NCBI GenBank assembly: GCA_020740775.1
Contig: JAHEWK010000023.1
Span: 806,001-870,000, forward strand
DNA: 64,000 nt
Source of the DNA: Ilyonectria destructans
Lineage: Eukaryota; Ascomycota; Sordariomycetes; Hypocreales; Nectriaceae
Reading direction: 5' to 3'
Shown here: positions 2,466 to 54,770 of the stretch, piece by piece
How the letters are laid out: each line of letters starts with the position of its first letter
Numbering within the stretch: position 1 is the stretch's first letter
The notes under the pieces: generated by a model
Databases searched by the model: none
What the model was told of the DNA's origin: nothing
What the model saw: the letters and a program-made list of their open reading frames with translations, nothing else
Made by a program: the position numbers and the translations under genes

Positions 2466-4513
2466 TCAGACTTTTGGCCGCTGACTGTAACGAATGGATT
2501 CCAGCAGCTTGATGACCGCCGCATGCCCCTCCCGTGCTGCCCACGACAGCGGCGTCCGGCCAGAGTTATCTTTTGACTCGAAATCGGCACTCTTCTCAAG
2601 TAGCAACTTAACAACTGTATCGTGCCCCTTCTGTGATGCACAGGACAGCGGGGTCTGGCCAGAGTTATCTTTTGATTCGAGGTCGGCGCCCTTCTCGAGC
2701 AGCAATCTGACGACTGCCTCGTGCCCCTTCTGTGCTGCCCATAAGAGTGGCGTCCGGGCCCAGTCCTTGTCTTTTGACTCGAGGTCGGCACCCTTCTCAA
2801 CGAGCAATTTGACGACTGCCTCGTGCTCCTCCTGTGCTGCCAACGACAGCGGCGTCCAGCCAGAGTTATCTTTTGACTCGAGGTCAGCGCCCTTCTTGAG
2901 TAGCAATTTTATGACCGCCTCATGCCCCGTCCATGCTGCCCACGACAGCGGCGTCCGGCCAGAGTTATCTTTCGACTCGAGGTAGGCGCCGTTCTCGAGC
3001 AGCAATTTAATGACTGCCTCGTGCCCCTCCTGTGCTGCCCAAGATAGCGGCGTCCGACCATCTATGCCTCTGGAGTTAACGTTGACGCCCTGGATGGTAA
3101 GAAAAAGTTTGACGATACCCTCGTGGCCGTTCTCAGCGGCATAGGATATTGGCGTTCGTTGTTCCTCATCTTTATTGTCCAAGTCACCTGTTGTAAGTGA
3201 AAGTAGATCAAGGGTTGCCTCGTCGCCAGTCCAAGCCGCCCAGTGCAGCACGGTTAATGATCCCCCCAATAGGAGAGACTGGGTCATCTGCTGCTGGATA
3301 CCGTGCAGGTACTTTTCTGTCTTTTCAGAGACTTCTTTGACGCTGAGAAAGTCGTTTGGTCCAACGTCCTTCACGGGCTCAATTTGAAGTCTTCGGTACG
3401 GGCCCAGAGGAATGCTTCTGATACTCTTTTGGTGTTGATTACGAATAGTATCGTAAATTTTCTAGGATAAAGTCAGTCAATCCCGATAAATGGAAGATGT
3501 TCATACCTTCGGGTCCCTCAGCCCTTCCTTCGCTCTTGACATTTCATCTTCCGGGGCCCGACGATGTTGAAACATGGAGAGGATGGGAAGAAATGGAGGA
3601 GGATAAGCCAAGAGAAGAAGGTCATGAATATCGTCCACCTCAATGTCTCCTGCTCCAATACTGATTATTGCATGGATTGGTTCGTCGGGGAATAACTTCT
3701 CAACCTCCCTGACAGCCAGCTCAGTTGGGTCTATGAGACCAAGAGGGTAACCCTTATCCAAAAACGAGATGTTGGATCCGTCGGCTGCTGGAAGAGTCAC
3801 TTCTGCAAACAGCCCTCGTGCTGCAGAGATTGCTGCCGCCGCCTGAGGGATAGTAGTGATGTCAGAGACCTCCTCATCGGGAGATGGGTAGGTTCTGATG
3901 CAGACAACTCCTTCACCCTTTCGTACACCATAGACGAACCTAAGATAGTTAGGAACATACCCACCGGTTGGTCTAAATCCGTTCATGAAGTCTTACACTT
4001 TGGTTGCTCTGGTTGGATCTTTCAGCGGCAATCCTTTAGGGTAGTATTTTCGGACAATTTGATCCATCACCATCTCCAACTTCCTTATGTCAAAGAGAGG
4101 CGGCGCAGCACCGTACCATTCTCTCTGAAGCATAAGAGACGACAGCTTCCAGTACTCACTCATGGACTGTGACACGGTGAGCTTGAGACAGCCGAGAAGA
4201 AGGGCGAGAACTCTGTTGGGGTAAGCTGATAGTAAGCCCGCGTAATTGAAGCCAGCGAAGGAGGCGGAGCATACCCTCCCATGCCCGCGCCAGTGATGCA
4301 CCTAAAGTGATCGCAGGGCTTGGCCTCTTCACCTCCTTGTCCGGTTGGGACATCCTCCATGACTTTCGCGAGGATCATTAGGCTACTGAGCCCTCTGATA
4401 CCGCCACCATCTAGTGCTTGAGTCAGCCCCGCGCCTCACGCGGTATGGACATTTGCTAGACTTCTCTTACCCAGCGAGAGAACCCGCAAAGGTTGCTCAG
4501 GGCCGCCCGACAT
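2466..4513 (-). CDS. Patatin-like protein with C-terminal ankyrin repeats, nucleophile Ser missing
   Basis: Reconstructed as five exons: 4513-4471, 4416-4275, 4212-3997, 3939-3507 and 3461-2466. The four GT-AG introns are 45-62 bp and join in frame. The start codon is at 4513 (MSGGPEQPLRVLSL). The oxyanion motif DGGGIRG lies near residue 16. The expected GxSxG nucleophile elbow reads GAGMGG, so Ser is replaced by Gly. The later DGG/DGA motif reads DKG. Hydrolase activity is therefore doubtful and the domain may be a pseudoenzyme. From about residue 330 follow eight ankyrin repeats (consensus RTPLSWAAQEGHEAVIKLLL), nearly identical to one another. Such patatin-repeat proteins resemble fungal NOD-like/allorecognition receptors without the nucleotide-binding domain. 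All exons are open, so it is probably expressed. Confidence 0.85.
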
Positions 4514-4988
4514 TTGCTTCTCGGTTGAATTTATGCGTTAAAGATCTGAGAGAAGGTGTGCCGCGGGTTAGAAGTTTGCAAAGCAGACGCGGCTCAGCTT
4601 TGTCGTGGCTGGGGGCCGATTGTTTTTACCTTTGGGGTTGGGCAAAGAGTCAGCTGCTAATTAGTAATTACGTCACACTCCGCCGTTCTCCACATCCGAC
4701 TCCGGTCGGTAGGTACCTGGTTCCTTGCGAATGTTACCTCGATAGTATGTGTCCAGTACTTCCCAATACTAGGAATGAACGTACCACAGAGAGCCAATCA
4801 CTTCGCGGGCCACCACACCACTCTACGACTCTGGACACACAGAAATGACGAGGACACTTGCCATGCATATCTGCATAGGGTGATGCATAACTTACTCCAA
4901 CACGGCATGCACGCAATATGCAGGTGGCTGCTTAGCAAATCGCAGGCGGTGGGTTGGCTCCAATTTTAAACGCATTGGATGTCTACAT
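4514..4988. other. Upstream region between divergent patatin genes, left of the LINE
   Basis: No gene is supported here. Together with 10504-10723 it formed the original roughly 700-bp intergenic region between the two divergent patatin genes before the LINE inserted. Small ORFs on both strands lack recognisable domains. Confidence 0.6.
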
Positions 4989-24152: not shown

Positions 24153-24154
24153 TA

Positions 24155-26125: not shown

Positions 26126-26300
26126 TAATGGAGTATCTAGGTGCCATAGCTTATGTGATCCCTGCTTCATTGAGAGTACAGCCGCCGCTTGCGCCCTTCC
26201 TGCCAAAGCGTCGCAATGGAGTCATCCTCGTCACATCACGCAGCTCGGATCAGTGATCGGAATGGTCTGGTCTGTCTTGGTCTCGGTCTGGTCTAGACTG

Positions 26301-26335
26301 CGGAGGCCCATAGGGCACACTGTTGCAAAACTCCC
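26301..26335 (+). repeat. Internal copy of the terminal-repeat motif
   Basis: CGGAGGCCCATAGGGCACAC followed by TGTTGCAAAACTCC matches the tips at 24155, 31754 and 47441. The common core is TAGGG(C/G)(T/A)CACTGTTGCAAAAC. It could be the left end of a 5.45-kb integrase unit (26301-31754) similar in size to the element at 47441-52727, but the flanking dinucleotide is TG rather than TA. Confidence 0.6.
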
Positions 26336-27073
26336 TGTCAGCTGTCTTTAGTGCCCATCCCCCACTATTAGGCCAGAAATGACCCCACACCTTACTAATC
26401 CAGATACTTCAGCATAAGTAGTAAGCAGGTACTGCGGACCAGCTGCGGGCCCGCGCGATTCGTATCCGTCCAACCTGCTGTTTGAATGCTACGAAGTGGC
26501 AACGTGCTCCAGTGATGTTGTAGAACCTCAATCTACACAATACGGTCCAAGCTATTTAGTTCTTTCCAAGCAATCACTAGCGAACTATAAGGCATTGTAA
26601 TCAACCTGATTTTCATTTGCTATGGTTGTAAGTCGAAATGCCGCTGTGCCGGATGTAAACTCCCGGTACTTATCCAGCCTTCAAAGTGGCCTCAACCTCC
26701 AAATTTGACGGCGCTGAGGACGTGTATATGCCAGCGTCCCTTTCACAATAGCCTCAAATTTTCATTCAGAGACTCAAATTGCGATCCCCATTTGAGCTGG
26801 TATTTTTTTTGCTCAAGGATTCTTCACACCAGGTGTCAACCGCCTATGTATGAGCACACAGCTTGGTAAGCCAGCAGCGGCTCAGCGCAGTGTTCCCGAG
26901 TCGGGTCAGCAGAGGACTAGCGTGGCGATCTCACGCTCAAGAGAGTCTAGTGATCACCATTCATCGTAGCAAAGGGTAACATTGTTATGTTTTGTAAACA
27001 ATAAAATCTCGTTCCCAATGTCAACTTGTTTCATTCTTTGCTTCTCTTGGCCCAAGGTCTCTCCTTAAACAGA
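26336..27073. other. Non-coding leader region before the accessory gene
   Basis: AT-rich, no supported gene. It contains several CCTCAAA/CTCAAAT motifs (26690-26800) of unknown meaning. Confidence 0.4.
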
Positions 27074-28387
27074 ATGGAACCCCTAGACATTCCCCCTGAG
27101 TATGTCTACTGCGTCAAAGCCGGGAAGAAACATCATGATCTCTTTACCACGATATACGCTGGCGAAAACTATTGTGGCCGTTGCGGTTTAGCCAACCCCT
27201 TTCAATCCCAAGGTCGGGCCAGGTCCAGAACTCCAGCCCTTCCGGGCCCCTATGATGAGGTGGTTGAGGTCGAAGACTCTCCGCCACAGCCAGCCAGTCC
27301 AGCAAGTCAGCTTATGCGTGACAGACCAAAACTAGTATCGTCTTCCGGTATTGGGTACGCGCAACTACTGCCCAACACGGTGCCTGTCTCCAATGGAGTG
27401 ACTGCGAATACACGGGCACGCCTATATCCCTCTAAGCCGGCAAGCGATACTCCCTATCCGCAATTCATGGCGGTCGCATCGGCGGCCAGTCAGGCCATTC
27501 AAAACACCAAAGGCAGCACCAGAAAGCCTAAGCGGCAGCGCACTAGCTACCAATGGGTCCACATCAGTCTCCTGCTCGTGAGCTTGGAGACCAGGTACTT
27601 CAATGGCCTTGCGATAGAGGTCCCAGAGACGGTGCTGCCTCTAAAGGATACAGTGATCAAGTTTAGCGCGGCCGACCTCCTTACCTGGCCTTCATTCACT
27701 CGGGTCTTATTTGAGCACCTGCGTCCACTCCCAAGCACCATCGATCCAACCAACAAAGAGCTTTGGAACCTTTCTTACGCTTCGTCCTTTTCTGGCAAGA
27801 AAATCGTTACCGTTCCCAACACCGATAAGTACACGACGCCGTCAAGCATGCTCGCTTCTGGACACTTTTCGAACAACCAATCTGGGCAGGTAAAGGTGCT
27901 CGTTGTCCTGACATCGACCGATGTCGTTGACAAGCAGGAGCCAATCACCCCGCTGAGGCCAGACGAGTACTTAACGCCTGTCAGGAAAGACAAAAAAAGG
28001 AAGGTCAAACAGGAGGACTCAAGCCCAGAGCTGAAGAAGCGTATCAAGCAAGAGAGGCAGATCAAGAAAGAGAAGGGTGTAAAGAATGGGAGACAAGTCA
28101 AGCAGGAAAACGCAGTTCCGGCTTCCTCCTACTCGAACCCGGCGGTTGATGAGGGCAGCACAATCGTCGACAACATTGTTGTGCAGGTGGATGCAGCAGA
28201 TCTGAGCGATCTGGAGGATCCCGTTGACGATCTAGTTTTCGACAGCGTCTCCGACGTGGAAGGGGATGAGCGTGAGGCAGACCAAGGCCCCGAGATCGAA
28301 CGTGGGAATGACGCAGGTTTTTTTAACAGAGTTCGTAAGAATCCCGGCCAAATTTTCACCCAGAGAAATACTGACCTCAGAAGATAA
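27074..28387 (+). CDS. Accessory protein A of integrase element (CHCC finger, SIM-like and psi-K-x-E motifs)
   Basis: A 437-residue protein of no named family. The ATG at 27074 is the first in frame. N-terminus: Cys-x6-His-x13-Cys-x2-Cys (CVKAGKKHH, then CGRC), a likely zinc finger. Then comes VVEVEDSPPQP, resembling a SUMO-interaction motif followed by acidic residues. A hydrophobic central region (residues ~180-320) follows, including WNLSYASSFSGKKIVTVP and QVKVLVVL. Next is a Lys-rich NLS-like stretch with four psi-K-x-E matches (VKQE, IKQE, IKKE, VKQE), then an acidic tail (DLSDLEDPVDDLVFDSVSD). The same order of features occurs in the protein at 48373-49542. It is convergent with the integrase gene. 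The function is unknown; a nuclear cofactor of transposition is the simplest guess. Confidence 0.75.
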   Translation: MEPLDIPPEYVYCVKAGKKHHDLFTTIYAGENYCGRCGLANPFQSQGRARSRTPALPGPYDEVVEVEDSPPQPASPASQLMRDRPKLVSSSGIGYAQLLPNTVPVSNGVTANTRARLYPSKPASDTPYPQFMAVASAASQAIQNTKGSTRKPKRQRTSYQWVHISLLLVSLETRYFNGLAIEVPETVLPLKDTVIKFSAADLLTWPSFTRVLFEHLRPLPSTIDPTNKELWNLSYASSFSGKKIVTVPNTDKYTTPSSMLASGHFSNNQSGQVKVLVVLTSTDVVDKQEPITPLRPDEYLTPVRKDKKRKVKQEDSSPELKKRIKQERQIKKEKGVKNGRQVKQENAVPASSYSNPAVDEGSTIVDNIVVQVDAADLSDLEDPVDDLVFDSVSDVEGDEREADQGPEIERGNDAGFFNRVRKNPGQIFTQRNTDLRR

Positions 28388-28729
28388 ACCTGCAGTCGGC
28401 AGTCACACCAGAATCTACCGAACAAGCTCCAACACAACAATTTGAGGATAATGCCGTCGAAGGAATCCCCCCGGCCCACTCAACACGTTTTAGGGGCACG
28501 AAGATCCCCATGACCTTTGCCTCTCGACCTAGAAAGAGGAGAGATTGACTATTCAAGCTACCCATCAGAGGTGCCAGCGTCCTCCTCGTCATCACTTATT
28601 CCCTCAATGTCATTTCCATTTTCGTCTTCAACGCCAAGTTCAACAAGCGGCTGTTCTGCTGGTTCCATATCTGCAAGCTCCTCTTGATGGGCTTGATTTG
28701 CTCGTGCAAGTAGTGCTTCCTATACATAG

Positions 28730-30280
28730 TTAACTGGATACTTTAATGCGCAGATAGACATAGCATCTTACATATTCGGCAACTCCCCCGGTCGGTGCTC
28801 TACGGTAGGCTAGCGTAGGCCGTTGTCCACTCTCTATGTGCCGAATGATCCTGTCGCGAAGGGCAAGGTAGAAGCGCTTCAATGGGCGCAACTTGTCAGG
28901 CTCCTGGTGATCGCCGAGGACTACATTATGGTAATCCATTTCGTTAAGAACGTCGCGGCACCATTCCTTTGTCTCTGGCTCAAGACATGTGCTGATGTCG
29001 ATGCCAGCCAGTGGCTGTGCCAGCTCGCCTAGAACTGTACGGTCGATGGGGATTCCCCAATTGCAAGCCTTGCTTGGGTCAGGGTAATGGTAATTCATCC
29101 AAGGTTGGCCGTGCACAACATGAGGCCGGTTCTTCTGAAGGCGAATTTTGTGTAGATTCCACGCCTCTACGAAATCGAAGAGCTCTTTACGCAGCACATA
29201 TTCGAAGACAGCGTAGATAGCAATCTGGTCCTCGAGCATATCGCCGTCAAAGTCCCCATCTCTGGCAAGCTCCCCAAAGTAGTCCACCCACTGCCGTGAA
29301 GAGACGTGAAGCATGCTCTCCCACCACTTCTCGATCTTGACGTTCTTCGTACTCGGTGCCGCCTTGTAGGAATCCTTCATCCGCTTGCCCTGCTGGAAGA
29401 CTTGGCCATTCCATTCCACGCGCCCACCAGCAGCTAAGGCAAAGTTCCAATGGGCTGCTGCGACCAGTGGCGTTTCGCTACCCCGGTCTGCCTGCAAGTA
29501 CCATGGGCGCAAGCCATAAGCGTCGCATGCAGCCAAATACTGCTTCAACACACTCAAGGCGGTGCTGGCTGAGTGGCCAAGGTAGAACCAGACAATATTG
29601 CGGGAGTATGCATCAATCGCGGCGTATATCTCGAAACCGTATGCCTTCAGCTTGTCATGGCCGTCAATGCACCACTGGTAGTTCGGCCCCGGGACGAGGA
29701 ACTGCCCTTTCTTCCTTCGCATCATCCTTCGGCGCATCTCGACATCGTTTGGGAACATGACTTTGTACATTTCAAACAGGGGATCCCTGGGTACCCAAAG
29801 CTGCTGTTGTTGGCGTAGATATGACTGGAGAAACCTTCGACCGTATCCTGCAATGGCATTAGATCGTTGAGCCATCTCGACAATAACTTGCTCTGTCTTC
29901 TCCAACAAAGCAAGGCGTTCCTCGTCGCTGTTTATGCGACGTAGCCAGCGACGGTCCCGGTGGAGTCTGATGCGTTTCAAACCTCTTTTAGTGATAGGCC
30001 AGCCTTGCCTCTGAAGAACACTCAAGGTCTGCTTCTCGGTAAGGCCAACACGGAAGATAAGGTCGTGAATAGCTTCCATGAGCTCTGGAGTCTCAATAGT
30101 GCGTGATTGTTGACGCGGAAGTCCCCAGCTGGCCACCCGCCGCGAGATTGTGCTAAGGTTGACAGCGACATTGTAATGTTTCCGCAGCTTATATCTGATC
30201 TGGCTTCGCGAGACGCCATTGAGGTACAGCAAGCTGACATAGTCGCGATATTGATCGATTGGGTTGGGTGGCCGAGCCAT
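28730..30280 (-). CDS. DDE/rve-type integrase (transposase), intact
   Basis: A 516-residue single-exon protein. Two helix-turn-helix-like segments (residues ~15-55 and 75-110) precede a retroviral-integrase-like core. The catalytic residues are D206 (CIDGHDK), D265 (QADRGSET) and E317 (NVKIEKWWE). The block GFEIYAAIDAYSRNIVWFYLG and the Trp-rich NVKIEKWW are typical of a eukaryotic integrase-core family found in animals and fungi. There is no protease, reverse transcriptase or chromodomain, so it is a DNA transposon enzyme rather than an LTR polyprotein. No stop codons. It faces the accessory gene and lies divergent from the six-cysteine gene. Confidence 0.85.
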   Translation of the reverse strand: MARPPNPIDQYRDYVSLLYLNGVSRSQIRYKLRKHYNVAVNLSTISRRVASWGLPRQQSRTIETPELMEAIHDLIFRVGLTEKQTLSVLQRQGWPITKRGLKRIRLHRDRRWLRRINSDEERLALLEKTEQVIVEMAQRSNAIAGYGRRFLQSYLRQQQQLWVPRDPLFEMYKVMFPNDVEMRRRMMRRKKGQFLVPGPNYQWCIDGHDKLKAYGFEIYAAIDAYSRNIVWFYLGHSASTALSVLKQYLAACDAYGLRPWYLQADRGSETPLVAAAHWNFALAAGGRVEWNGQVFQQGKRMKDSYKAAPSTKNVKIEKWWESMLHVSSRQWVDYFGELARDGDFDGDMLEDQIAIYAVFEYVLRKELFDFVEAWNLHKIRLQKNRPHVVHGQPWMNYHYPDPSKACNWGIPIDRTVLGELAQPLAGIDISTCLEPETKEWCRDVLNEMDYHNVVLGDHQEPDKLRPLKRFYLALRDRIIRHIESGQRPTLAYRRAPTGGVAEYVRCYVYLRIKVSS

Positions 30281-30636
30281 GACAATAGGTAGGGATGAGA
30301 ACCAAAGGCAAGGACGAGGTCGTGGTGTTTAATGCAAGGGGATTTGTGGCTGGAACCCCTATTTGAGCAACGCGATCGGCGCGGACCGTCGCGCTTTTGC
30401 TGCTGCCTCGCTGCGGACTAGATCAACTAGTGGGATGGCGGATACCACTCATTAGGAATAGCTTGGACGCGGATCAATTCAAGAACGCCTCAAGTGGCCT
30501 ATTGATAAATGAGTTTTCCGCTCTGTTCTCATTATCGTCACCAAGGAAACGAATTGGGCTCTTCTAACTGTCACCAAGGTGCTTTTAATCAGAAGCGTAG
30601 TGCAACATAACTGTGCGCCGTCGACTTACATTAGTC

Positions 30637-31482
30637 ATGGCAAACGTAGACGCTGTACGCGCGTCTGGTGGACTGCAGTCCAACAGCGACAAAATTGTCA
30701 ACAATAAGGGAAGAGTCCAGTCCAGCACCCGCAAATCCGCGAGCAAGATCACCGTACGGTCCACCCGGCTGCTCTGCACATGGTATCGTTACTGATTACA
30801 TTTGTTTGGGTAGAAGAAGAGGGCACAAAAGAAGAAGGCACCTCCGATCGGCTCGGCGCGTGACTTCCCCTGCCGCCCCTGTGTTACCCGCGCTACCAAG
30901 AACCCTGGGCATGAGTGTGCCTCTCAGGATAGTAAGTGGCTATTCTGTCGTAGAAGCTTTTCCAGGGTAACTTATACGGACAGATACTGGTGCTGCCTGC
31001 TGGGACTGCGCAAAGAACGGTCACACGTGTCGGCCAGTGAGTAAACAATACCGACTCTCTACAAATCAGATGCTAATCAGTTGCTATCAAAGGTCCCCGC
31101 TGGTGCCGTCTCTGCTGTGCGTGCCTTCTGGGAATTGAACCGGCTGATCGACGATGTAAATAAGGATCCCGACGATGCCTGGCACTCTGCAGCACAGCGC
31201 GCAGCACAGCAACTACGCGCTTGCGGTGCTGCTGACCGGTGTCCTGCTGCCGCTCTAGCTCATTCTCCCGCCTTGGCTCGCCTTGGTGAATCAGCCGAGC
31301 CGACACTCGAGGAGCGGAAGGTTGCGGCGCTGGAGGCCATCGCTGAGGCTGCTCGTCTCTGGACTGTAAGTAGGTCAAGACTTAGTTACGAATCCGTTAG
31401 TTACTGAGTCGGTATTTAGCAGCTCAATAAGCCGAATGAGGAAGGTACAGAAGTGGGAGAGGAATCGGATAAGGAATACTAG
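30637..31482 (+). CDS. Six-cysteine (DUF3716-like) protein of integrase element
   Basis: A model with short GT-AG introns: exons about 30637-30750, 30814-30929, 30986-31033, 31081-31368 and 31422-31482. They join in frame to about 205 residues ending in TAG at 31480. After a Lys-rich N-terminus it has CRPCVTRATKNPGHEC, then CWDCAKNGHTC. This gives C-x2-C-x11-C-x9-C-x2-C-x6-C, like the fungal DUF3716 cysteine domain. The rest is helical, with an acidic end (EVGEESDKEY). Equivalent proteins occur twice in the 47-52 kb element. A DNA- or protein-binding zinc role is likely; no enzymatic motif is visible. Exon edges are by eye. Confidence 0.65.
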
Positions 31483-31563
31483 GCGTTGATATCATCCAAC
31501 AAAATAGAGCTGTTAAGGGGTTTATTTGAAGTGGAATGTTTTGGTCGAACATTAGTGAGACTT

Positions 31564-31754
31564 CTAAGCGCTGATCCGCAGCGGCCCCGCTGTAGTTCGT
31601 TCTGTTGACCGTTTGGGCATGAATTCAACAGAATTGAGTACGGAGGTACATGGCTCAATGTACTGTGGGGCAAAAGCCTTGATCATGTGGACCCCATTTT
31701 GCGTGTTCAGGCGTGCTTTTGGGGTTTTGCAACAGTGACCTCTATAGGCTGCCA
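31564..31754 (-). repeat. Right terminal repeat matching 24155-24345
   Basis: On the minus strand it begins TGGCAGCCTATAGAGG, next to TA. It carries CACTGTTGCAAAACCCC and the hairpin GTACATTGAGCCATGTAC, and ends inside sequence equivalent to the DDE_1 helix-turn-helix codons. Differences from 24155 include C-to-T and G-to-A changes. Confidence 0.75.
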
Positions 31755-31762
31755 TACTACTA

Positions 31763-31845
31763 GGGGGGTCTCGTCATTTCACTTCAGCTCAACCCCCCGT
31801 TCGTCCCTCACGGGGGGGTCGTTGACTAGCGAAAAAGTCGGCGAC
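31763..31845 (+). repeat. Left 83-bp terminal inverted repeat of pogo element
   Basis: Identical in reverse complement to 34457-34539. It includes two C/G runs able to pair with each other (AACCCCCCGTT and ACGGGGGGGT). Confidence 0.95.
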
Positions 31846-32049
31846 TCGCGAAGCTAAGAAAGGTACCTAGAAATTAGGTGTGCGCACTAGTAAAGTTATG
31901 TACCAATGTTTAATCGAATAACTCTTTTACGTACAAGGCGTATGCAGCTTCTCGCGCTGTGACATATCTGCAACATCAACCCCGCATCATCACATCGTCA
32001 AATTGGTAGCATCTACTAAAACACTACAACTTCAAACCACCACAACATT

Positions 32050-34302
32050 ATGAGTTCTTTGTCAATTGGTGATCAGAATAGCGCATCTTGCAGCCTAGAG
32101 CCAGAATTATCTGCAGTAGAAAAATGGATTAACCCTCACACCGGGAAGCCTGACTTCTCGCGATATAATGAGGGGAATCTTGAGCAACGCACTCTTGCTG
32201 CAGCTGAGCTCCTCCGAGAGGGTTTTTATCGATCTGCTGCCGCGGCATCGCGAGACCTGAAGGTCCCGTATCATAGACTCCTAGGCCGTATTAAAGGAGC
32301 GAAGCCTGCCACCCAAAATGGCGGTAACAACACTCTTTTGACCGACATACAGGAGGCGGCAATACTGTGTTGGGCACATCGCCGGGTCACACAGGGCCAC
32401 CACATTCAACTTCGATCTCTTCAACACAACGCAAATGCTATTCTGAAGGCCTCTGGCCAGCCTCACAGGGCATCACAGAGCTGGGCCAAGCGCTTCATGA
32501 AGCGTTGGAGAGCTACCTTTTATGTGAAGAAGTCAATGACCCGAGATGTGAGGCGTAAGGCGATGCAAGACCGCGCCCACATCGAGGCCTTCTTCCGCGA
32601 ATTTGAGCTCTTTGTACGTGAGAATGGCATCAAAGTTGAGCATATCTGGAACTTCGATGAGACGGGCTTTATGATCGGATATCTCCAGAAAGGCACCTTC
32701 GTGTGGACTTTTCGAGAAGTTGAACAGCCCATTCTAACTGATGCACACACTACTATCTCTGTGACTACAGTTGAGTCAATATCGGCTGCTGGTGACTCTA
32801 TTCCTCCATTTATTATCGTACCCGGTGTCAACATTCCCGTCAAATGGGTCCAAAATCGGCTTAGTGACGATACTACGATTACGACTAGCAGCAAGGGGTA
32901 TATCAATGACATCCTAGCTCTCGAGTGGGCTGTGCACTTCGAGCGACTTACACGGCCTACTAACCCGGAAGAGAAGCGGCTGCTTCTTATGGATGGGTGT
33001 GAGAGCCACTTTACGAATGAAATCTTCTATTTTTGCAGTCAACACAACATCGAGCTGTTCCCTATGCCTCCACATCTTACACATTATCTTCAGCCTCTTG
33101 ATGTTGGTGTTTTCAACGCATATAAGCAGTGGCATCAGCATATCCTCTATAGGGAAATTGCTGATGGCGCCAATGACTTCAATAAGACCGACTTCCTATA
33201 CCACCTCCAAGAGATACGAGAACGGACCTTCCAGAAGAACACGATTATCTCTGCTTGGGAGAAATGCGGCCTCTTTCCTCACAACCCAGCTAAGGTCCTA
33301 GATAACCTCGCTGATCCGCTGTCATCATTGACAGCAGATATCTCTGCTGAGAGTCTCCCAGGTCATATGGAAGTTGGCTCTTCATCAATAATCACAACAC
33401 CACATCAGCATAGCGGTGATAGCTTCACAACCCCTGTGACGCCTCAGAGGGTGCCGTTAGCAGCGTATAACTGGGGAGAGGCAACCACACCACCACTACG
33501 AATGAAGGTTATTGAGAGATATCAGGATTACGTGATGCTTCGAATGCACACATCAATTACATCAGGGGTGCCGTTGACCCTGTCAGTCATGCGTGTATTT
33601 GAACATGCAGTCAGTGCTAGTAACACACTGGCCCTGAATGGTATTACCGCCACTCAGGAGCTGCACCGTCTGAAAGATAAGGCTACAAGACGGTCAGCCC
33701 TCCAAGCACAGACGGGGCTTGTAGCAAAATACGGCCCAATTAGTGTCGGTGATGCTAGGCTTCGAGTCTCAAAGGATGAATACAATCAACAAGCTGCACA
33801 GGCTGATGAGAAGAAGCGAATTTTACATAAAGACAGTCAAGATGAAGGTCTCTTTTTACGCCGTTGGATACGTGATGTCAGGTCACATGTGAGGCCTAGC
33901 ATCATGGCTCTGAAGCTAGAAGATATCTATTCTAACCCCAGAAGAGCCTGGAAGCCACTGTGTAAGCTGCAGCTACAGCGCAGCAACTGGTGGTCCAAAA
34001 CAGACCGGCGTTCTCACCTTGCTTCAAGTGAGTGGCTTGCGCAGAAATATGCTCTTCATCGCCAGCTTCAACAGCTAGGAATAGGTGACAACAGATGGCA
34101 AGGAACAGGATCTTGGCCGAGAGACTACGACCCCGAAGTGGTCCAAGAAGCGGTCAACTTTGCGATCTTCAACGTACAGGAACGGGCTCTTGGAAGAAAG
34201 AAGTTGACTTTTGAGGTTGATGGAGTTGAGGTTATTGCAGATGATGTAAATCATACTAGTCAGGGTGAATTCCTGGTCCCAAAAGACGAAATAGATGACT
34301 AG
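32050..34302 (+). CDS. Fot/pogo DDE_1 transposase, intact
   Basis: A 750-residue protein encoded without introns. N-terminal psq helix-turn-helix (residues ~45-85, SAAAASRDLKVPYHRLLGR), CENP-B-like DNA-binding domain (~95-165), and DDE_1 catalytic core with D203 (WNFDETGFMIG), D315 (LLMDGCESH) and D351 (LQPLDVGVFNAYK). The last two are spaced as in Fot/pogo enzymes. It is longer than Fot1-type proteins because of a ~330-residue C-terminal extension with WWSKTDRRSHLASSEWLAQK. It excises and inserts the element at TA sites. No stop, frameshift or RIP mark is visible. Confidence 0.93.
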   Translation: MSSLSIGDQNSASCSLEPELSAVEKWINPHTGKPDFSRYNEGNLEQRTLAAAELLREGFYRSAAAASRDLKVPYHRLLGRIKGAKPATQNGGNNTLLTDIQEAAILCWAHRRVTQGHHIQLRSLQHNANAILKASGQPHRASQSWAKRFMKRWRATFYVKKSMTRDVRRKAMQDRAHIEAFFREFELFVRENGIKVEHIWNFDETGFMIGYLQKGTFVWTFREVEQPILTDAHTTISVTTVESISAAGDSIPPFIIVPGVNIPVKWVQNRLSDDTTITTSSKGYINDILALEWAVHFERLTRPTNPEEKRLLLMDGCESHFTNEIFYFCSQHNIELFPMPPHLTHYLQPLDVGVFNAYKQWHQHILYREIADGANDFNKTDFLYHLQEIRERTFQKNTIISAWEKCGLFPHNPAKVLDNLADPLSSLTADISAESLPGHMEVGSSSIITTPHQHSGDSFTTPVTPQRVPLAAYNWGEATTPPLRMKVIERYQDYVMLRMHTSITSGVPLTLSVMRVFEHAVSASNTLALNGITATQELHRLKDKATRRSALQAQTGLVAKYGPISVGDARLRVSKDEYNQQAAQADEKKRILHKDSQDEGLFLRRWIRDVRSHVRPSIMALKLEDIYSNPRRAWKPLCKLQLQRSNWWSKTDRRSHLASSEWLAQKYALHRQLQQLGIGDNRWQGTGSWPRDYDPEVVQEAVNFAIFNVQERALGRKKLTFEVDGVEVIADDVNHTSQGEFLVPKDEIDD

Positions 34303-34456
34303 AAATAATGAAAATGGCACTTTGGTCAGTCACTTACATCACACCGACTTTTCGTTTGGAACATACCGATGCAACTTACCCCATGTAATCGCTATAATGA
34401 AGGTACCTCGTCTACACCAAGAATTTGGTGTGGATTGATGTACCTAAATTTCGCCG

Positions 34457-34539
34457 GTCGCCGACTTTTTCGCTAGTCAACGACCCCCCCGTGAGGGACG
34501 AACGGGGGGTTGAGCTGAAGTGAAATGACGAGACCCCCC
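34457..34539 (-). repeat. Right 83-bp terminal inverted repeat of pogo element
   Basis: An exact reverse complement of 31763-31845, followed by TA. Confidence 0.95.
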
Positions 34540-34541
34540 TA

Positions 34542-34696
34542 GTAGTGCTAACAGCCGCTAGTCAGGAAGAATTTTACAGGAGAGAGTTGTAGAATACGGC
34601 CAATACGCCACGGCTGACCAACAGGAAGTGGAGTGCCTGCAAGCACCAACACTTACCCCAACCATCTACCCGCTCGTATCGTACTCGCGATTGGAA
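34542..34696. other. Upstream region of the F-box gene
   Basis: A short non-coding stretch between the pogo end and the ATG at 34697. The insertion lies about 155 bp upstream of this gene and may affect its promoter. Confidence 0.4.
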
Positions 34697-46893: not shown

Positions 46894-47440
46894 TGCGAGA
46901 TATGGCTTTCGGTCGAGGTGGCGGCGAGGCGACGCGACGCGACGCCGATCGACACGTCGTCAGCTTTGCTCTGCGACAAACGCAAGCGCTATATTGTCAG
47001 TGCTCAAAACTTGGAACTGCAAGCGTTATATCCCAGATTGAGCTGAAGTGAACCTGGGCCATGACAGTCGGAGCATCGTTTCACTTGCCGTGTCCCGATG
47101 AAGTAACCATGCAGCTACACGTATACACCAGATGGCCAAATACGTTAAAAGCGGTCAATACATCGAGGTAGACTCGCCTGGTGCCAGCGTTTAATCGGAT
47201 GCTTCCCAGCGCATTGGACAGGGGCTGCCACCGCATTGACCCTTGTCCATCTCGATGAGAAGCCGAATGATTAGGAAGCAGGAAACTATCTGGAAATTAT
47301 TACGAAAAAAAATATTAAAGACGCTGGGAAAGACACAAATGGTAGACATCTCACGCTTGATTTAGAGGGCAAAACAGTCACATTCCACAGAAGGAAAAGC
47401 ACCGTTGAACTCAGACGCAGCTGTTTCAGGCCCAGACCTA
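46894..47440. other. Intergenic region left of the 47-kb element
   Basis: No gene supported. A short GGCGACGCGACGCGACG run lies near 46920-46940. Confidence 0.4.
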
Positions 47441-47492
47441 CGGTTGACTGTAGGGCTCACTGTCCCAAAACCCCATTTTCAAAAAATTTCAT
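47441..47492 (+). repeat. Left terminal inverted repeat of the 47-kb element
   Basis: CGGTTGACTGTAGGGCTCAC, then TGTCCCAAAACCCC and ATTTTCAAAAAATTTC. It matches 52676-52727 inverted, with differences only after position 31. The core TAGGGCTCACTG, then CAAAAC, also matches the tips at 24155, 26301 and 31754. Confidence 0.9.
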
Positions 47493-47679
47493 CATTAGAG
47501 CCACCCTAGCGTATCTTCTTCATAAGCCCGAAACCCCCAAATACATGAATATTCAATTAAAGCGAGAGGGATATTCCATATACAAGGTCATACAACAATT
47601 TTTCCCCCAGTTCACGTCATCTTTTCCCTGTCACATTCTCCATCAATACATATCAGCAAAAACACCAACTGTATTACAC

Positions 47680-48259
47680 ATGTCACCTCCAATTAACTCA
47701 ACTGCCAAGCAGCCATCAAATAAGGCTGCACTCACATCATGGGCTCTTACAAAAGCCCAATTAATACGGCCTGCAAAGGTGATAAGATGTCAAGAGCAGG
47801 CAACAGAGAGCCGTCTGTTACAGCTGAATACACGAGCTAGACAAGGGCGGTCTGCATCAACTGGCCTTGACTTAACCCGTACACAAAATATTGATGCACT
47901 ACTCATCTATATTTATGGGACTTCACGCACACCTTCCTGTATGCAATGTGCGAGAGGAAATGGCATTTTTGAAGGGTGTATCACTAAGAGTGATATTGCT
48001 GCTGGTGCATGTGCGAACTGCACATATTCATCGAGAGGAATTCGATGTTCATATCATGGTAAGCTATTGAACCTTTCTTTATATAACAAATACTAATCAG
48101 AATATATTAGATCGGCCAAAAGAAACACAATTATCTCAGTCCATAATAGAGAAAATCGTGAAGGAGTCTACACCTGATCAACTACGTGCATTTGGAGCAG
48201 ATCTAATTGAAAGAGCTAAGGTCCAAGAGGAACTTAGCTCCACACAGCCCGAAGAGTAA
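47680..48259 (+). CDS. Six-cysteine DUF3716-like protein
   Basis: Two exons (47680-48058 and 48111-48259) around a 52-bp GT-AG intron encode ~175 residues. The ATG at 47680 is chosen as the first likely start after the AT-rich leader; the frame is open upstream to 47545. CMQCARGNGIFEGC and CANCTYSSRGIRC give C-x2-C-x9-C-x10-C-x2-C-x8-C, matching the fungal DUF3716 pattern. The C-terminus is helical (STPDQLRAFGADLIERAKVQEEL). It is probably zinc-binding. It is the first gene inside the left terminal repeat and points inwards. No damage is seen. Confidence 0.7.
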
Positions 48260-48372
48260 CTAGTCTAGGGTTACGGGTGATGAGTCATTAGTGCTAATAT
48301 TCTCTTTATTTAAAGTGAAAAGTTTTGCGTACGCAAATAATCCAACTTAATCCTTCTTTATTATTCTCTACT

Positions 48373-49542
48373 ATGAATTCCACAATCTGTTCCAAGAAGG
48401 GTTATCTCCATTCTGTTGTATTGTAGTTAAACCCAGACTGGGCTCGTTGTTATTTCTGTGGAGATAATATTACACCTTTAACTCTCCCTTCTTCTGCCAA
48501 TCCTCAAGTTAATATGGTCGATTTGACTGGAGACAGCCCAATCCCACCTACACAGGCACGATCACGACAACTCCAGCATGCACCTGCACCTGCAATGACT
48601 ATCCCTTCCTACAATCCTGCTCAACTGGAATCCGCTGTCAATCAGGGCAACCAAAGCCGAAATCTCCACGCCCAAGCTACTCGAACGAAGCCGATACCTA
48701 ATACACCCATTGAGTTGTCAATTACCTTATATACAGCAGCATATAAGTGTAAACCAAGCGGTCAATTGGAGATCAGGAAGTGGCAGCCTGGATCTCCTAG
48801 TGTTGCTACGAAAGTTAGCAATTGTTTTGTTACAAACGCAACACACAACTATCCTTCACATGCCGACTTTGTAAAGTCAGTTGCAGGACGTGCAGCAACT
48901 GATGCAACATATCGGGCTGTTAACTGGGAGTTCATTTCTGCTTGCATCTGTAACAGTTCTACAAGCATTGTTTTCTTTTCTCAGGAGGTTCTTGAGACAA
49001 CTTCTCTTGCTGCATTTCTTACTGCAATCAATCCTCAAGGTCCGGTTCCAACCAAGGCCAATCTTTCACTTCTGTATGCTTATGAAGCGAAAGAGGAGGA
49101 ATCTGACATGATCACTCCTGTTCCAGTGCAAAAGAAGAAGGTCAAAGGCGAAAAGAAACTATCTCTTCCTATACAAAGCAATCCCCCAACACCATCTCCA
49201 ATCAATCGCAAACGAAAGGCATCTACACAAGCAGCTCCAACAACGGAGAGGAAGGTGAAGATAGACACGAAAAAGGAGGAGGTGTTGGTCTTACTAGAGA
49301 AGTCTAATGGAGAAGATGACTTTGCTGCATTCTTCGATACGGATGTGGATGGATCGGATTTGAATGGACGAGATGAAATAGTTGTGGAAGTAGCTGGGCA
49401 AGGTAATGAGGATTTAGAGGCATTTGTGTCAGATGATGGAAGTAGAGAAGTGATTGAGGGAGATGTAATTAGTACAGGGCGGAAGACTGGCAGTAAACAG
49501 CCACTGCCTCCATTAAGCATGGTAACTCGCCAGCGTAAGTAG
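48373..49542 (+). pseudogene. Accessory protein B of integrase element, one early stop
   Basis: A counterpart of the protein at 27074-28387. From ATG 48373 the frame reads CSKKGYLH, then CYFC, i.e. Cys-x6-His-x12-Cys-x2-Cys. A TAG at 48424-48426 lies inside the finger (CAG to TAG would be RIP-like; alternatively this is an intron end and translation begins elsewhere). Next is MVDLTGDSPIPP, a SUMO-interaction-like motif. A central region (residues ~115-235) contains NWEFISACICNSSTSIVFF. Then come basic clusters with VKGE and VKID, INRKRK, and an acidic tail (EDLEAFVSDDGSREVIEGD). The order and motifs agree with accessory protein A although overall identity is low. It ends 26 bp from the convergent integrase. 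Confidence 0.7.
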
Positions 49543-49567
49543 TTTCAATCCTCTTAAGTCTTTTCCT

Positions 49568-51157
49568 TTATTGATCTGCTGCTATCCATGATTCAAACAC
49601 ATCAATATCGATATTCTGAGCCTGTAGAAGTTGACTAAGTCGATCTCGCCCATCTCGGGGTCGGTCAAGTAAGGACAGTCGTGGTAAAGTCCCATTCTGA
49701 ATATAAAGAGCCAATTCACCTCGTAGGAGATTGTACTCATCCAAAAGTGGATGTGTGACAACGTTCGATATTGCTGGTAAAGAGCCAATTGTCCTTGTGA
49801 TAATATCTTGACAAATGGACATTGTTTCTTCTGGTAAGAAAACATCCAGATCAGATTGATCAAGATTAAAGGTTTCTTGACAGAATCTGAATCGATCGGG
49901 TGGAATCTCTTCAGCAAAGTTCCGTGCAGTCTCTGAATTGAGATCATGATATAGAACTGAGGGTTGTCCAGGTTGAACATGTGGTCGATTGGCTTGACGG
50001 CGAATAGAATGGCTATTCCAGACTCTTACAAATGATATCAAGTCATGCCGGATCGGATTCATAAAGATGAATAGAATAGCAATGCGATCAGGGAGAGAGC
50101 CGCCATCAAAGAGCCCATTCTCTGTTAGCCATTGGAAGTATGTCTAATCGAAGAGAATTAGTAAAGATCAATAAGAAATAGTAGAAACTTACCCTCCATG
50201 ATCCTCCACGTGCTTGATAAAGCCGATGCCACCAGCTTTCAATTCGAGTATTATGAATACTCCGTCCAAAAAACCAACAATCCTTGAACTCAATTGGAAC
50301 TAACTCTGTTCCAATTCGTTTCGATTCCCAGAAAGAAAGTAATGTAAGCCACACATCAGAGCTGTTTCCCCTCCGTGATCAGATCGAATAGCTCGTGGCA
50401 TCATACCACGCTGCCGCAGAACTGATAGATACTGTAAAGCAATATTCCAACTTGTTGCAGCAGAATATCCACAGTAAAACCATGTAATATATCGGGCATA
50501 CCCATCAATACCAGCATAGATCTCAAAGCCCCATTGCTTAAGCTTATCATAACCATCAAGGGACCATACCCAGTCAGGCCCTGGAACAATGAAGTCACGA
50601 CGTTGAAAACGCGCTTTACCCCATCGATCAGTAATGCTTTCAGGTGCAAAGTCTCGATAGACAGTGTACAATGCATCGCGACTGATAACATGATGTTGTT
50701 GCCTCATGTATGTGTAAAGATAGCCTCGACCAAAGTTTTGAATGACAGTTGAGACTTGAGACTCATCGTGAAAGAAAGTTCTTGCAAGTTGTTGAGCTAT
50801 TTGAAGCTGGTTATTGTCTTGCCGCCTGAACAGACCGAGTTCCCGACGGATCTTGCAAAGTCCAGTCATACTCAAGATAAACCCCTCATCTTGAAGCCGG
50901 CGTAGGATAATAGCATCTTTTAAACAGTCATCAAAGAACATTGACTTGATTCGCTCTCGTAGGGGTTCAGTATTAACTGTACGTTGTTGATGTACAAGTT
51001 CACATTGCTGTAAGAATCGGTACAGGACTGAGCGACTGACTTGAATATTATAATTGGTAGAAAGAGAAAGAATAATACCAGAGATTGGGGTATTTTCTTC
51101 ATGAAGAATAGTGATATCTTGACGGAAAGGGTTAAGATCTGTTCGAGGTCGAGGCAT
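49568..51157 (-). pseudogene. rve-type integrase with one frameshift
   Basis: MPRPRTDLNPFRQDI at 51157 starts a ~510-residue integrase related to the one at 28730-30280. It has helix-turn-helix segments, then catalytic D in WSLDGYDKLK, D in IRSDHGGET and E in HNTRIESWW. A frameshift near 50330 separates HYFLSG from ESKRIGTELVPIEF, and no GT-AG intron can bridge it. A canonical intron (about 50192-50144) joins GGSWR to TYFQWLTENGLFDGG. The remaining C-terminus is open to the stop at 49568. Apart from the frameshift it looks complete. Confidence 0.8.
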
Positions 51158-51169
51158 GTTGATTGAGGT

Positions 51170-51330
51170 TGAAAAGGAGAAGAAAAAGAGGAAAAGATAA
51201 GAATGGAGATAAATAACTTAAATATAAAATGTAATTAGTTATATGTTTATTAAATAACTGTTTAGTTACATATATTACTTAATTATATTTCTATTTAAAT
51301 AAATAACTAAATAAAACTTGAGAAATCTTT
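51170..51330. other. AT-rich divergent promoter-like region
   Basis: Very AT-rich DNA (ATAAATAACTTAAATATAAA and similar) directly upstream of the integrase ATG. It probably holds its promoter. Confidence 0.4.
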
Positions 51331-51476
51331 GTTTTGTTTCAAAGACAAAGTCTGTAAAGCTCTTTACAGCTCTGTTCATACCTGATCAGAACTATGCTAA
51401 TCATTATGCTTGAAATCTCAGAAACCCAAGCCCATATGTCCCCGTAGAGCCATGTACATAGCTAATCAGACATAAA

Positions 51477-52265
51477 CTAATCAGTATCATCATGAATATT
51501 GCCGTCAAGGAGTGCCTCGAAGACATTCTTCATGACTCTGAGCGATTTGTTGTCAAGACTCATGAGCTCATCCATAACATCCTCTGCCTTGTAGTCCCGG
51601 CCAGATTTTTCCTTCTTGCTCTTTTTCTTGCCCTTACCCTTCTGCTTTTTCTGGTGCTTGGAAGTGGCTCATCGTCAGAGGATTCGTCGCGGGATCTCTT
51701 GCTGCCACCTGTGGTTATTAGTGATAGATCCAGACCAGATATGTACATGTATGTACAGAACTTACCAGAGACAAGTGAGCAATGTTTGGCAGCACCACCG
51801 TAGTGGCAAGTGGCACAACCCAGGTGACATTTCGTCCAATGCCACATAAGCATTGAACGCACCAGTACCGTCCTTGCACTTCTGGCACGCCTGTTTGCCT
51901 TTGTTTTCTTGCCCGTACATGAACTTGACCAAGGAATCGGCGGCTTGAGGGCGTGTAACGTTCACCACAGGCATGACTTTGCCTGACTTGGTCTGTCGAG
52001 AACGTAGCTCAATGAATCGCATCATCTATCCAACAGTTAGCCATGTACAGGGCTGTACAGAGTCAATCGAGTAAGTACTCACGGGGAAATCAGCGTCACG
52101 GTCGAAGATCGCAGCGGCCTTGGCAGTAAAGGAAGCCTTGACGTCGTAGAACAACCGCGCGAACAAGTTCGCGGGCGACATGTCCACGGGGTCGACGTTC
52201 TCCTCAGATGGGATGGGAGTACCGTTGAGATCGTCAGGCAACTTGAACACAACCGTGGACGCCAT
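51477..52265 (-). pseudogene. Second six-cysteine (DUF3716-like) gene, frameshifted
   Basis: Exon 1 (52265 to about 52083) begins MASTVVFKLPDDLNGTP. The intron is GTGAGT to ATAG. Exon 2 carries CQKCKDGTGAF, and after a one-base loss CATCHYGGAAKHCS. The pattern is C-x2-C-x9-(Tyr for Cys)-x10-C-x2-C-x8-C, the same spacing as the gene at 47680. Another intron follows (GTAAGT to ACAG), then GSKRSRDESSDDEP. A second frame change leads to a Lys-rich tail and EDVMDELMSLDNKSLRVMKN, ending at TAG 51479-51477. The Cys-to-Tyr change is RIP-like. It points inwards from the right terminal repeat. Confidence 0.65.
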
Positions 52266-52421
52266 TGTTCAATGCGGTACAGGCGTGTATGGGCGTGTGG
52301 ACGCGTAGTCGAGAAGTTGTTGTTGTCTGATGATAAACGTGAAGCAATGGCGGATGATGTTTTGCGACATGGGCCAATGTTTCGCGATGTTTGGTGGTGT
52401 ACACGTCTGTAGACCAATGTT

Positions 52422-52423
<2 letters not shown>

Positions 52424-52455
<32 letters not shown>

Positions 52456-52462
52456 AGAAGAA
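52424..52462. repeat. Poly(A)/AAG tract
   Basis: About 29 A residues followed by AAGAAGAAG, between the second six-cysteine gene and the right terminal repeat. A simple repeat. There is no sign of a retroposed copy next to it. Confidence 0.9.
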
Positions 52463-52675
52463 AGATGACGAGGGAAGAATTCCAATTGCGCGCGCTTAAA
52501 AAAAAGACGAATCTCTATGCATGTGTTCTACGCCTGTAACTATCTGTGAACAGCTGTTCACAGCTGTACTCGAATTCTTGCCAGTATTGGAATGAGAGCA
52601 TGTAAACGTCATATAATCGGTTTAAAGGATATTACATTTACGATCAGGCGTGAATACGCCCGTAGTGTGCGGCTA

Positions 52676-52727
52676 GTGGGAAATTTTTGAAAATGAGTTT
52701 TGGGACAGTGAGCCCTACAGTCAACCG
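52676..52727 (-). repeat. Right terminal inverted repeat of the 47-kb element
   Basis: A reverse complement of 47441-47492 with a one- to two-base difference after the first 31 bp. Confidence 0.9.
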
Positions 52728-52729
52728 TA

Positions 52730-54770
52730 TCACCACGTTTCTTCGGTCGCTAAGCTTGGTTTCATACATCCTCTTGTCTTCATAGATCCATTCGTTCATA
52801 CGCCTCCTTATCGAGTCGTCGTTTGTAAGAGATGCCGCTTCGCGTGCGTAGCTGATACGCATGTGCAGACACGATGTCACATCTATCACCGACTTCGGCA
52901 GTCAAAGGCATACGATTTTGCTTGCTTTTACGGACTGTTATTTTCCCAGACGGACTAATAGGCCTAACAGCTGATCCTACTGTCAGGGGGCTGACCCTGA
53001 TCCCTGTACTAAGACATCTATTGTGTTCCAATTCCTCTATAAAATACGGCCCTTCAGACCGTCAGTTAGCTAGGAATCAAGATCTTCTACATGTTCAATT
53101 GCAATCCCGCCTTCTGATACACGACATGGCGATGTCCCACCTGTTCGCTACCACAACGAGAAAGTGCGCTAGATCTGTCACGAATCGCACGATGAGGCAA
53201 TTGTTGGGACGGTTCAGCAGATCCACAAAATAATATGAAGCCAGGCCGAGCTTGTCGCGTTTCAATTCCCCCTGCCAACATCAGAGCCAATCCCCTTTCT
53301 CGGCCGCCGGTCGTGCCTGCTGTGGTCAGGGTTCTGCATTTCAAGTCAGCATTCGCTCTGCGACATGCCCTCAGAGAAGCAGGTGGATTTCTCCAATCAA
53401 AGCCCGACCCAGAGCCCGCCATACAGAGGAAACAAGACTTTGCGTGACGTGCTGTATGCGGACAGGTGAATCGATGGCGTGGTGATTGTCGGCTTATGTC
53501 GATTGATGACATAGGAACGTGAAAAGTGCATCACTTTCTTCACAATTTTCCACGACCCCATGTCGGGGCAGTCCTTCCATTGACGGAGCAGACAGAATTA
53601 GGTTGACGCAAGCGGTAGTGCATCACAAAATATGACCATATTTTCACCATTTATGAGAACGAGGATAAATGTGCTAACATGTTCAACAGTTACTGACCAG
53701 CGTGTCCGTATAACTTATCTTAGAGTAATACTACAAAAATAATACTTTAGGGTCGGATTCCTATCGCGAGCGGAATACCGTATATAGAGTTTGAACAGCT
53801 TCGTTGCACCGACAAGCACAAACCTCCCCTGTCAGCTAAATTATCGGTGTTCTGCTATCCCTAAGCCTCCTTTGGTCGCAGTTTTGTCATCCCTGCTGCC
53901 TAGAAACTCTCCAGAGACACTTCGATAGCTTATAAATCGTGACAGCCAATACTCGACGGATTTTTGCTTAGTCCTGATAGGCAACTGCGTAATAGCGACC
54001 GGCCGAAACCTCCCTAAAGATACTTGAATGGCCTTCGCATCACAGGTCGTCTTCCCAAGCCAATCTTGCGTTCCGTTCCACAACAGGGTCAGGAGCTGAT
54101 TAAAGTTTTCGTGCTTTCTTCCAAGTCATCAATCAAATTCATATGCGACTGCATAAAGTTACACCAAAGCATCTGCAAGTATTGATATTAATAACGTCAC
54201 GTTGCATATAGTCCAGAACTTTATTAATGGATCTCAGATGTAGATGTGTGTGGATGAAAAAGTCCTGGTGGCTCTTTAATGAAATCCTACTACAGCTGCG
54301 CGCCATAGTGCAACCAGTCAAGTTGCTAAGAAAGCTAGAGCGACCGAGAAATTTAAAACTTAAAGGTTCGTAATAAAAGTAACGATATCACGCCCCAATT
54401 TAACAATCCAACCATGTTCGAAACTGGCCCTCTACGTTCTTCATGAATATCCTGAAAACAAAACCTAAAGAGCTCAATAAATCAGCTATCATTATTAAGT
54501 CATACTTAGAAACTTTCCAGAGTTTCCCAAGGTTTCGTATCTAAATTTATCTAGTTCCACACAGACTGTGAATGGGTTTTGCATGTGATTGCATGGTAGC
54601 TGCATGTGACTGCATGATGCTCAATGAGTATCTGTAAGTACCTACTGTACCAATTCCCGTTGGCATTTTAACAAGATGCCACCAAATGGATCCGTGTACG
54701 CGAGAAAAGATCACAGCTACAGACGTTTAAGCCTTATCTCGAGGCTTGTCACTCTCTCGGTCTTGCCGTC
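52730..54770. other. Gene-poor stretch
   Basis: No gene supported. The ORFs on both strands at 52874-53512 lack domains. A promoter-like block at 53028-53095 resembles 61880-61930. The region 53530-54700 is AT-rich and featureless to my reading. Confidence 0.5.
53028..53095 (+). promoter_or_regulatory. Promoter-like block shared with 61880-61930
   Basis: CTCTATAAAATACGGCCCTTC, then AGTTAGCTAGGAATCAAGAT and CTTCTACATG. It matches TATATAAGGGC, CCTTCAAATAGCTAGAAATC and AAGAGCTTCTA at 61880-61930. A TATA-like box and a start-site-like segment are preserved, yet no clear gene follows at either place. Possibly a decayed LTR or a duplicated promoter. Confidence 0.45.

Follow-up and report, generated by a model that had tools for sequence, protein, structure and literature searches.

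A decayed transposon, very probably of the IS3EU type, and its proposed helper genes in Ilyonectria destructans

The window, a stretch of 64,000 nucleotides of the Ilyonectria destructans genome (71.7 Mb), covers positions 806001-870000 of contig C16 (901,828 bases). It contains a decayed element of this nectriaceous fungus, which is very probably a cut-and-paste DNA transposon of the IS3EU type, accompanied by genes for proposed helper proteins. The target duplication of the element is 5 or 6 bp. The reading of the sequence alone had suggested a distinct multi-gene transposon type in fungi. A multi-gene integrase element with recurring tips and partner genes was indeed found. It is not a new type, since its ends, the size of its duplication and its integrase core are in keeping with IS3EU, a superfamily already described. 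The helper gene set, a partner protein with zinc and SUMO motifs and in several families a DUF3716 protein, appears to be new.

IS3EU elements are little studied and have been tied to chromosome rearrangements in another fungus. The genome of I. destructans harbors many families at once. Clean ends and duplications, together with empty sites and derivatives lacking the integrase, allow the roles of the partner genes to be compared by family. The SUMO motifs give the role of the accessory protein a concrete, testable form.

Element borders, tips and copies

The element in the window [family A] spans 47439..52729, the TA..TA ends included. Its inverted repeat (47439-47484/52684-52729) comprises 46 bases at 89%, of which the outermost 33, including TA, are identical. 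The left copy of the identical part is located at 47439..47471 on the plus strand (TACGGTTGACTGTAGGG...), its right partner at 52697..52729 on the minus strand. The tips read TACGG...CCGTA. Counted from CGG, 31 bases are identical, which agrees with the matching inverted tips described earlier from the sequence. The gene order given there was also recovered: a DUF3716 gene (+), an accessory gene (+), an rve/rva_4 integrase gene (-) and a second DUF3716-like gene (-).

A search with the element's initial 160 bases identified seven family A copies in the genome. Six of them have both ends on one contig, and the seventh runs off contig C29. The six sister copies have flanks unlike those of the window copy, so the borders of the element are not due to chance. 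The copy on contig C33 has a length of about 7.0 kb versus about 5.1-5.3 kb in the others; its left tip is partly repeated and it carries an insert.

At least 134 integrase matches are present in the genome, with identities down to 27%. Full elements were read for families A, C, D, E and G, together with the family J copy in the window and one family K copy. Their lengths range from 3.6 to 5.5 kb. Tips and partner gene types recur in several families of this genome. Ends of the form TACGG..CCGTA were identified via inverted repeats in families A, C, D, E, G and K. The tips are of the TACGGAAG type in C, D, E and G, TACGGTTGACTGTAGGG in A and TACGGTCGCACATTACC in K; those of J are decayed. The D/E tip pattern TACGGAAGNCCATANGGGNCA has 51 matches in the genome versus one for the reversed pattern, and the K tip pattern 89 versus none. 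Tip pairs recur at a fixed spacing in families D, E and K. The further D, E and K copies were chosen by tip pattern and are no independent test of the ends.

Target duplication and exchange of flanks

The TA on both sides of the tips had been taken for the target duplication. Both TAs are part of the inverted repeat, and 24 of the 54 end pairs compared have direct repeats of 5-6 bp immediately outside TA...TA. A TA next to a tip need not be a target duplication. Two tips facing each other at about element length were treated as a pair, and the bases just outside TA..TA were compared. The 54 pairs comprise 24 from families A, C, D, E and G and 30 from K, including a 235-bp mini-element; tips without a partner, some at a greater distance and the C29 copy running off its contig were omitted. 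Exact duplications of 5 bp occurred in seven pairs and of 6 bp in 17. As a control, left ends were combined with right ends from other copies; this yielded 2 and 4 among 2862 combinations, respectively. The 6-bp duplications belong to K (15 of 30 pairs, with no 5-bp case), G (1 of 1) and E (1 of 11), the 5-bp duplications to A (1 of 6), C (1 of 1), D (3 of 5) and E (2 of 11). An exact duplication is missing in 30 of the 54 pairs. Seven of these take part in closed exchanges of flanks and one, a D copy, is one base off; 22 pairs stay unaccounted for.

Empty sites were obtained by joining the flanks minus one copy of the repeat and matching the product to paralogous sites in the same genome. None carries an added TA. 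Three empty sites fetched for family C are exact at the junction, with the target CGTCC present once. The family D site has GGATA once; the left repeat copy at this element is the one that is one base off. In family A, an empty site identified by crossed flanks has GGTCT once. The family G site is diverged, has a one-base gap at the junction and agrees less cleanly, also with no added TA. Two empty sites of the A copy on contig C35 do not fit a simple insertion.

The window copy is not flanked by a duplication of its own; its outer bases are cagacc and tcacca. This is explained by an exchange of flanks with the sister copy on contig C13. The left flanks of both copies share GGTCT (right sense), and the right flanks share TCACC. 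Accordingly, AGACC at 47434..47438 is one half of a 5-bp target duplication and TCACC at 52730..52734 one half of a second, with the other halves located beside the C13 copy. At a paralogous site on contig C12 the left flanks of the C13 and window copies meet, with GGTCT between them once. Two E copies, on C16 and C38, form a closed exchange with two 6-bp matches, and the six flanks of the K copies on C15, C18 and C30 match one another in a closed cycle of three. When 2000 sets of 6-mers were drawn at random from the window, a two-copy cycle of any kind arose in one set and a three-copy cycle in none.

The flanks of the window copy may have been swapped with those of the C13 copy by ectopic recombination or by a join in the assembly. 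It is close to an even chance that the missing duplication and the other exchanges are assembly joins over near-identical copies and do not reflect recombination in the fungus. The near-identity of copies within a family makes such joins plausible, and misjoins are equally expected to produce closed two- and three-copy cycles. Against this, rearrangements linked to the element Styx have been reported, as described in the available part of that study (PMC10853768). In the assembled sequence, misassembly would leave the same pattern as recombination between copies, and the two would not be separable.

Integrase gene

The integrase gene is located at 49568..51157 on the minus strand, with exons at about 51157-50193 and 50143-49571. 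The encoded transposase consists of an N-terminal helix-turn-helix-like part followed by an rva_4 DDE core (PF24764, E 4.1e-14 in a Pfam scan). The first exon matches PF24764 and, weakly, PF00665; an H2C2-type/HHCC domain was not found in this exon by the Pfam scan. A Clr5-like N-terminus is weak in the window integrase (E 0.18) and is listed for some relatives. In an alignment of the integrases of seven families, D202, D261 and E309 are invariant. The protein thus agrees with the description of IS3EU transposases: a DDD/E rve-like core, no HHCC domain and the first catalytic D 100-300 residues from the N-terminus. An apparent intron directly follows the catalytic core (..WR) and occupies one shared alignment position in the A, C, D, E and G integrases; it is absent in J and K.

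The frame is shifted in the window copy and open in sister copies. The open frame comprises 371-374 residues in other A copies compared with 305 in the window copy. The dN/dS values between A1 and A2 copies are 0.12-0.16.

Partner genes

DUF3716 gene a is located at 47680..48259 on the plus strand (exons 47680-48063 and 48110-48256 plus stop). Its product matches PF12511 (E 1.2e-13), and its exons match a named I. destructans protein. DUF3716 gene b, on the minus strand with approximate limits of 51492..52265, is broken by a frameshift in the window copy and scores weaker for DUF3716 than gene a. Both genes had been read as six-cysteine genes. This holds for gene a; gene b encodes five of the six cysteines, and the third is missing, as seen in the C13 copy.

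DUF3716 has 53 matches in the genome, of which 46 have an integrase match no more than 4 kb away. The earlier reading had allowed for homologous integrases that consistently lack partner genes. DUF3716 matches lie near 41 of the 48 best integrase matches and near only 3 of the 86 other listed ones. The DUF3716 protein occurs in several, not all, families. The K copy read contains only integrase and accessory genes, so the partner gene set varies, and a cysteine-rich gene of family J is unscored by PF12511. Values of dN/dS for gene a are 0.08-0.18 between A1 and A2 copies. The DUF3716 protein is probably a zinc-binding helper and might act in end binding or regulation.

The accessory gene (48373..49542, plus strand) encodes an N-terminal C..H..CxxC zinc motif, the SUMO-binding-like motif VDLTGDSP, an ordered middle domain and a charged tail. 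The product has no significant Pfam match, and the window copy has one in-frame stop. An accessory gene accompanies the transposase gene in all seven families with elements read (A, C, D, E, G, J, K). Family K, with just integrase and accessory genes in the copy read, suggests that the accessory is the basic partner. Three partly overlapping accessory queries yielded 45, 33 and 19 matches, of which 32, 27 and 19, respectively, are located at most 4 kb from an integrase match. Together, 78 of 97 fall into a zone that makes up 1.5% of the genome. Accessory matches are near 37 of the 48 best integrase matches and 26 of the 86 other listed ones; the K accessory is too diverged to match these queries, and those of G, H and I were not among them.

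Seven accessory tails contain 23 SUMO-acceptor motifs (psi-K-x-E) versus a mean of 1.93 in shuffled tails. None of 5000 shuffles reached 23, and the reversed motif was counted three times. The family A tail has a single acceptor motif (P 0.31), as does that of family I. The SUMO-binding motif is missing from the accessories of families G, H and I.

The accessory dN/dS is 0.50-0.51 between A1 and A2 copies and 0.69 for the damaged C33 copy (125 codons). Between families D and E, with dS near 0.9, values of 0.16 for the integrase, 0.30 for DUF3716 and 0.32 for the accessory were obtained. Judged by these ratios, the genes appear to be coding and under constraint, which is weakest for the accessory.

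The zinc motif, the SUMO-binding motif and the SUMO-acceptor motifs suggest that the accessory is most likely a nuclear cofactor, which would link the transposase complex with repair sites or with chromatin rich in SUMO. A more specific proposal is tentative and has a somewhat less than even chance of being right. The IS3EU accessory would then be a SUMO adaptor encoded by the transposon. It would bind SUMO through its IDLTxDSP-type motif, be modified itself on several tail lysines and perhaps carry a ubiquitin-like middle domain. The element would depend on it, either for recruitment of the transposase to SUMO-marked chromatin or repair sites or for evading silencing. No report on such a partner was found in the literature on SUMO-interacting motifs and transposases, as judged by titles and the openings of abstracts.

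Integrase-less derivatives and further elements

Two derivatives without an integrase gene have tips and 6-bp duplications of their own. The 235-bp mini-element (C16:744061-744295) has K tips and the duplication TTTGGG. A 1.6-kb derivative (2902-4517 of excerpt L155, contig C31) has the tips TACGGAAGTCCATAT and the duplication TCATTG, and holds remnants of accessory and DUF3716 genes. Eleven accessory matches far from integrases represent a 196-residue frame, namely that of the C31 derivative and ten similar ones elsewhere. Since these integrase-less copies have tips and own duplications, they may have been mobilized by an enzyme supplied in trans.

The window contains a second IS3EU-type element of family J (26299..31756) with the decayed tips TGCGG/CCATA. 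It includes an accessory gene (27074-28318, plus strand), an integrase gene (28733-30280, minus strand) and the cysteine-rich gene (about 30640-31480, plus strand). A further element at 31756-34546 adjoins its right end and has 97-base inverted repeats that are 98% complementary. A lone J-type tip (TACGGCAGGCTATAGGGGTGACTTGTTGCAAAACCCC) is present at position 24153.

Transposition and alternative explanations

The transposase, with its helix-turn-helix-like N-terminus and rva_4 core, most likely binds the TACGG.. tips. It would excise the element and join it to target DNA at positions staggered by 5 or 6 bp, giving rise to the duplications of 5-6 bp. The duplication itself is documented by the empty sites and flanks. 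The enzymology, including cut-and-paste by the integrase, is presumed from the family.

Three other explanations were considered. An integrase transposon that targets TA, with tips CGG..CCG and the duplication TA, would account for the TA that adjoins the tips in nearly all copies. It is very improbable in view of the repeats outside TA (24 of 54 pairs versus 6 of 2862 in the control) and of the C, D and A empty sites, in which CGTCC, GGATA and GGTCT occur once with no added TA. Still less credence, close to none, is given to an unrelated MITE pair flanking four genes by chance, as had been considered from the sequence. Short elements with such tips do exist (235 bp; 1.6 kb), but tips and genes stay together in sister copies, and the spacing of tip pairs in families D, E and K is fixed. 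Membership in a separate superfamily, convergent on IS3EU-like ends, is unlikely. The 5-bp duplications of families A, C and D speak for it, as does the gene set, which was not found in the literature searched (mostly open papers, without Repbase, where such IS3EU entries may exist). The same literature yielded no paper on DUF3716 at all, in transposons or otherwise. Against a separate superfamily stand the rva_4/rve core in which the HHCC domain was not found, the 6-bp duplications in K, G and one E copy, and the ends of fungal IS3EU elements, given as TAYGG..CCRTA in the available part of the source (PMC12730594). The assignment to IS3EU, made against published descriptions and not reference sequences, is thus preferred.

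Comparison with known systems

Ginger1, Ginger2 and Polinton, likewise DNA transposons of eukaryotes, share an rve-type DDE integrase with the present element. Their duplications are described as 4, 4-5 and 6 bp, respectively, and their origin as likely separate (PMC10045372). In addition, the Pfam scan detected no replication or capsid family in seven window ORFs, and the elements read here are 3.6-5.5 kb long. Tc1/mariner elements share the TA beside the tips. Here, TA is not the duplicated target and the transposase is of the rva_4/rve type; empty sites without the TA and the 5-6 bp duplications speak against a Tc1/mariner-like TA duplication.

Styx from Zymoseptoria is described as an IS3EU-related element of 7927 bp with four ORFs and 6-bp duplications, tied to rearrangements. 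According to the text available (PMC10853768), a Styx copy with a non-functional integrase has moved, and the study reports no Styx-like element beyond Zymoseptoria. Four genes, as in the window element, the relation to IS3EU and, in some of the present families, 6-bp duplications are common to both. The integrase-less derivatives would parallel the moved Styx copy, and the flank exchanges, if due to recombination, its rearrangements. By description, Styx differs in its length of 7.9 kb and in its partners, which are GATA, CCHC and DUF3577 genes (PMC10853768).

Complete IS3EU families are described with TA..TA ends, usually 6-bp duplications and no HHCC domain (PMC10045372; Kojima and Bao, 2023). 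In Colletotrichum lupini, IS3EU is reported as the most abundant DNA transposon (PMC11645255). The TET+ IS3EU elements of rust fungi have TAYGG..CCRTA ends, 6-bp duplications and opposed transposase and alpha-kinase genes, as far as described in the accessible text (PMC12730594; Kojima, 2025). With IS3EU/GingerRoot as described there, the present families share the TA..TA ends, inverted repeats of more than 30 bp and a DDE core without HHCC. Some of the present families (K, G and one E copy) also show the 6-bp duplication, and extra genes, some of which oppose the transposase gene, occur in both. Differences from these descriptions are the 5-bp duplications in families A, C and D, where 6 bp are usual, and the partners, which are not TET/JBP or alpha-kinase but a protein with zinc and SUMO motifs and DUF3716.
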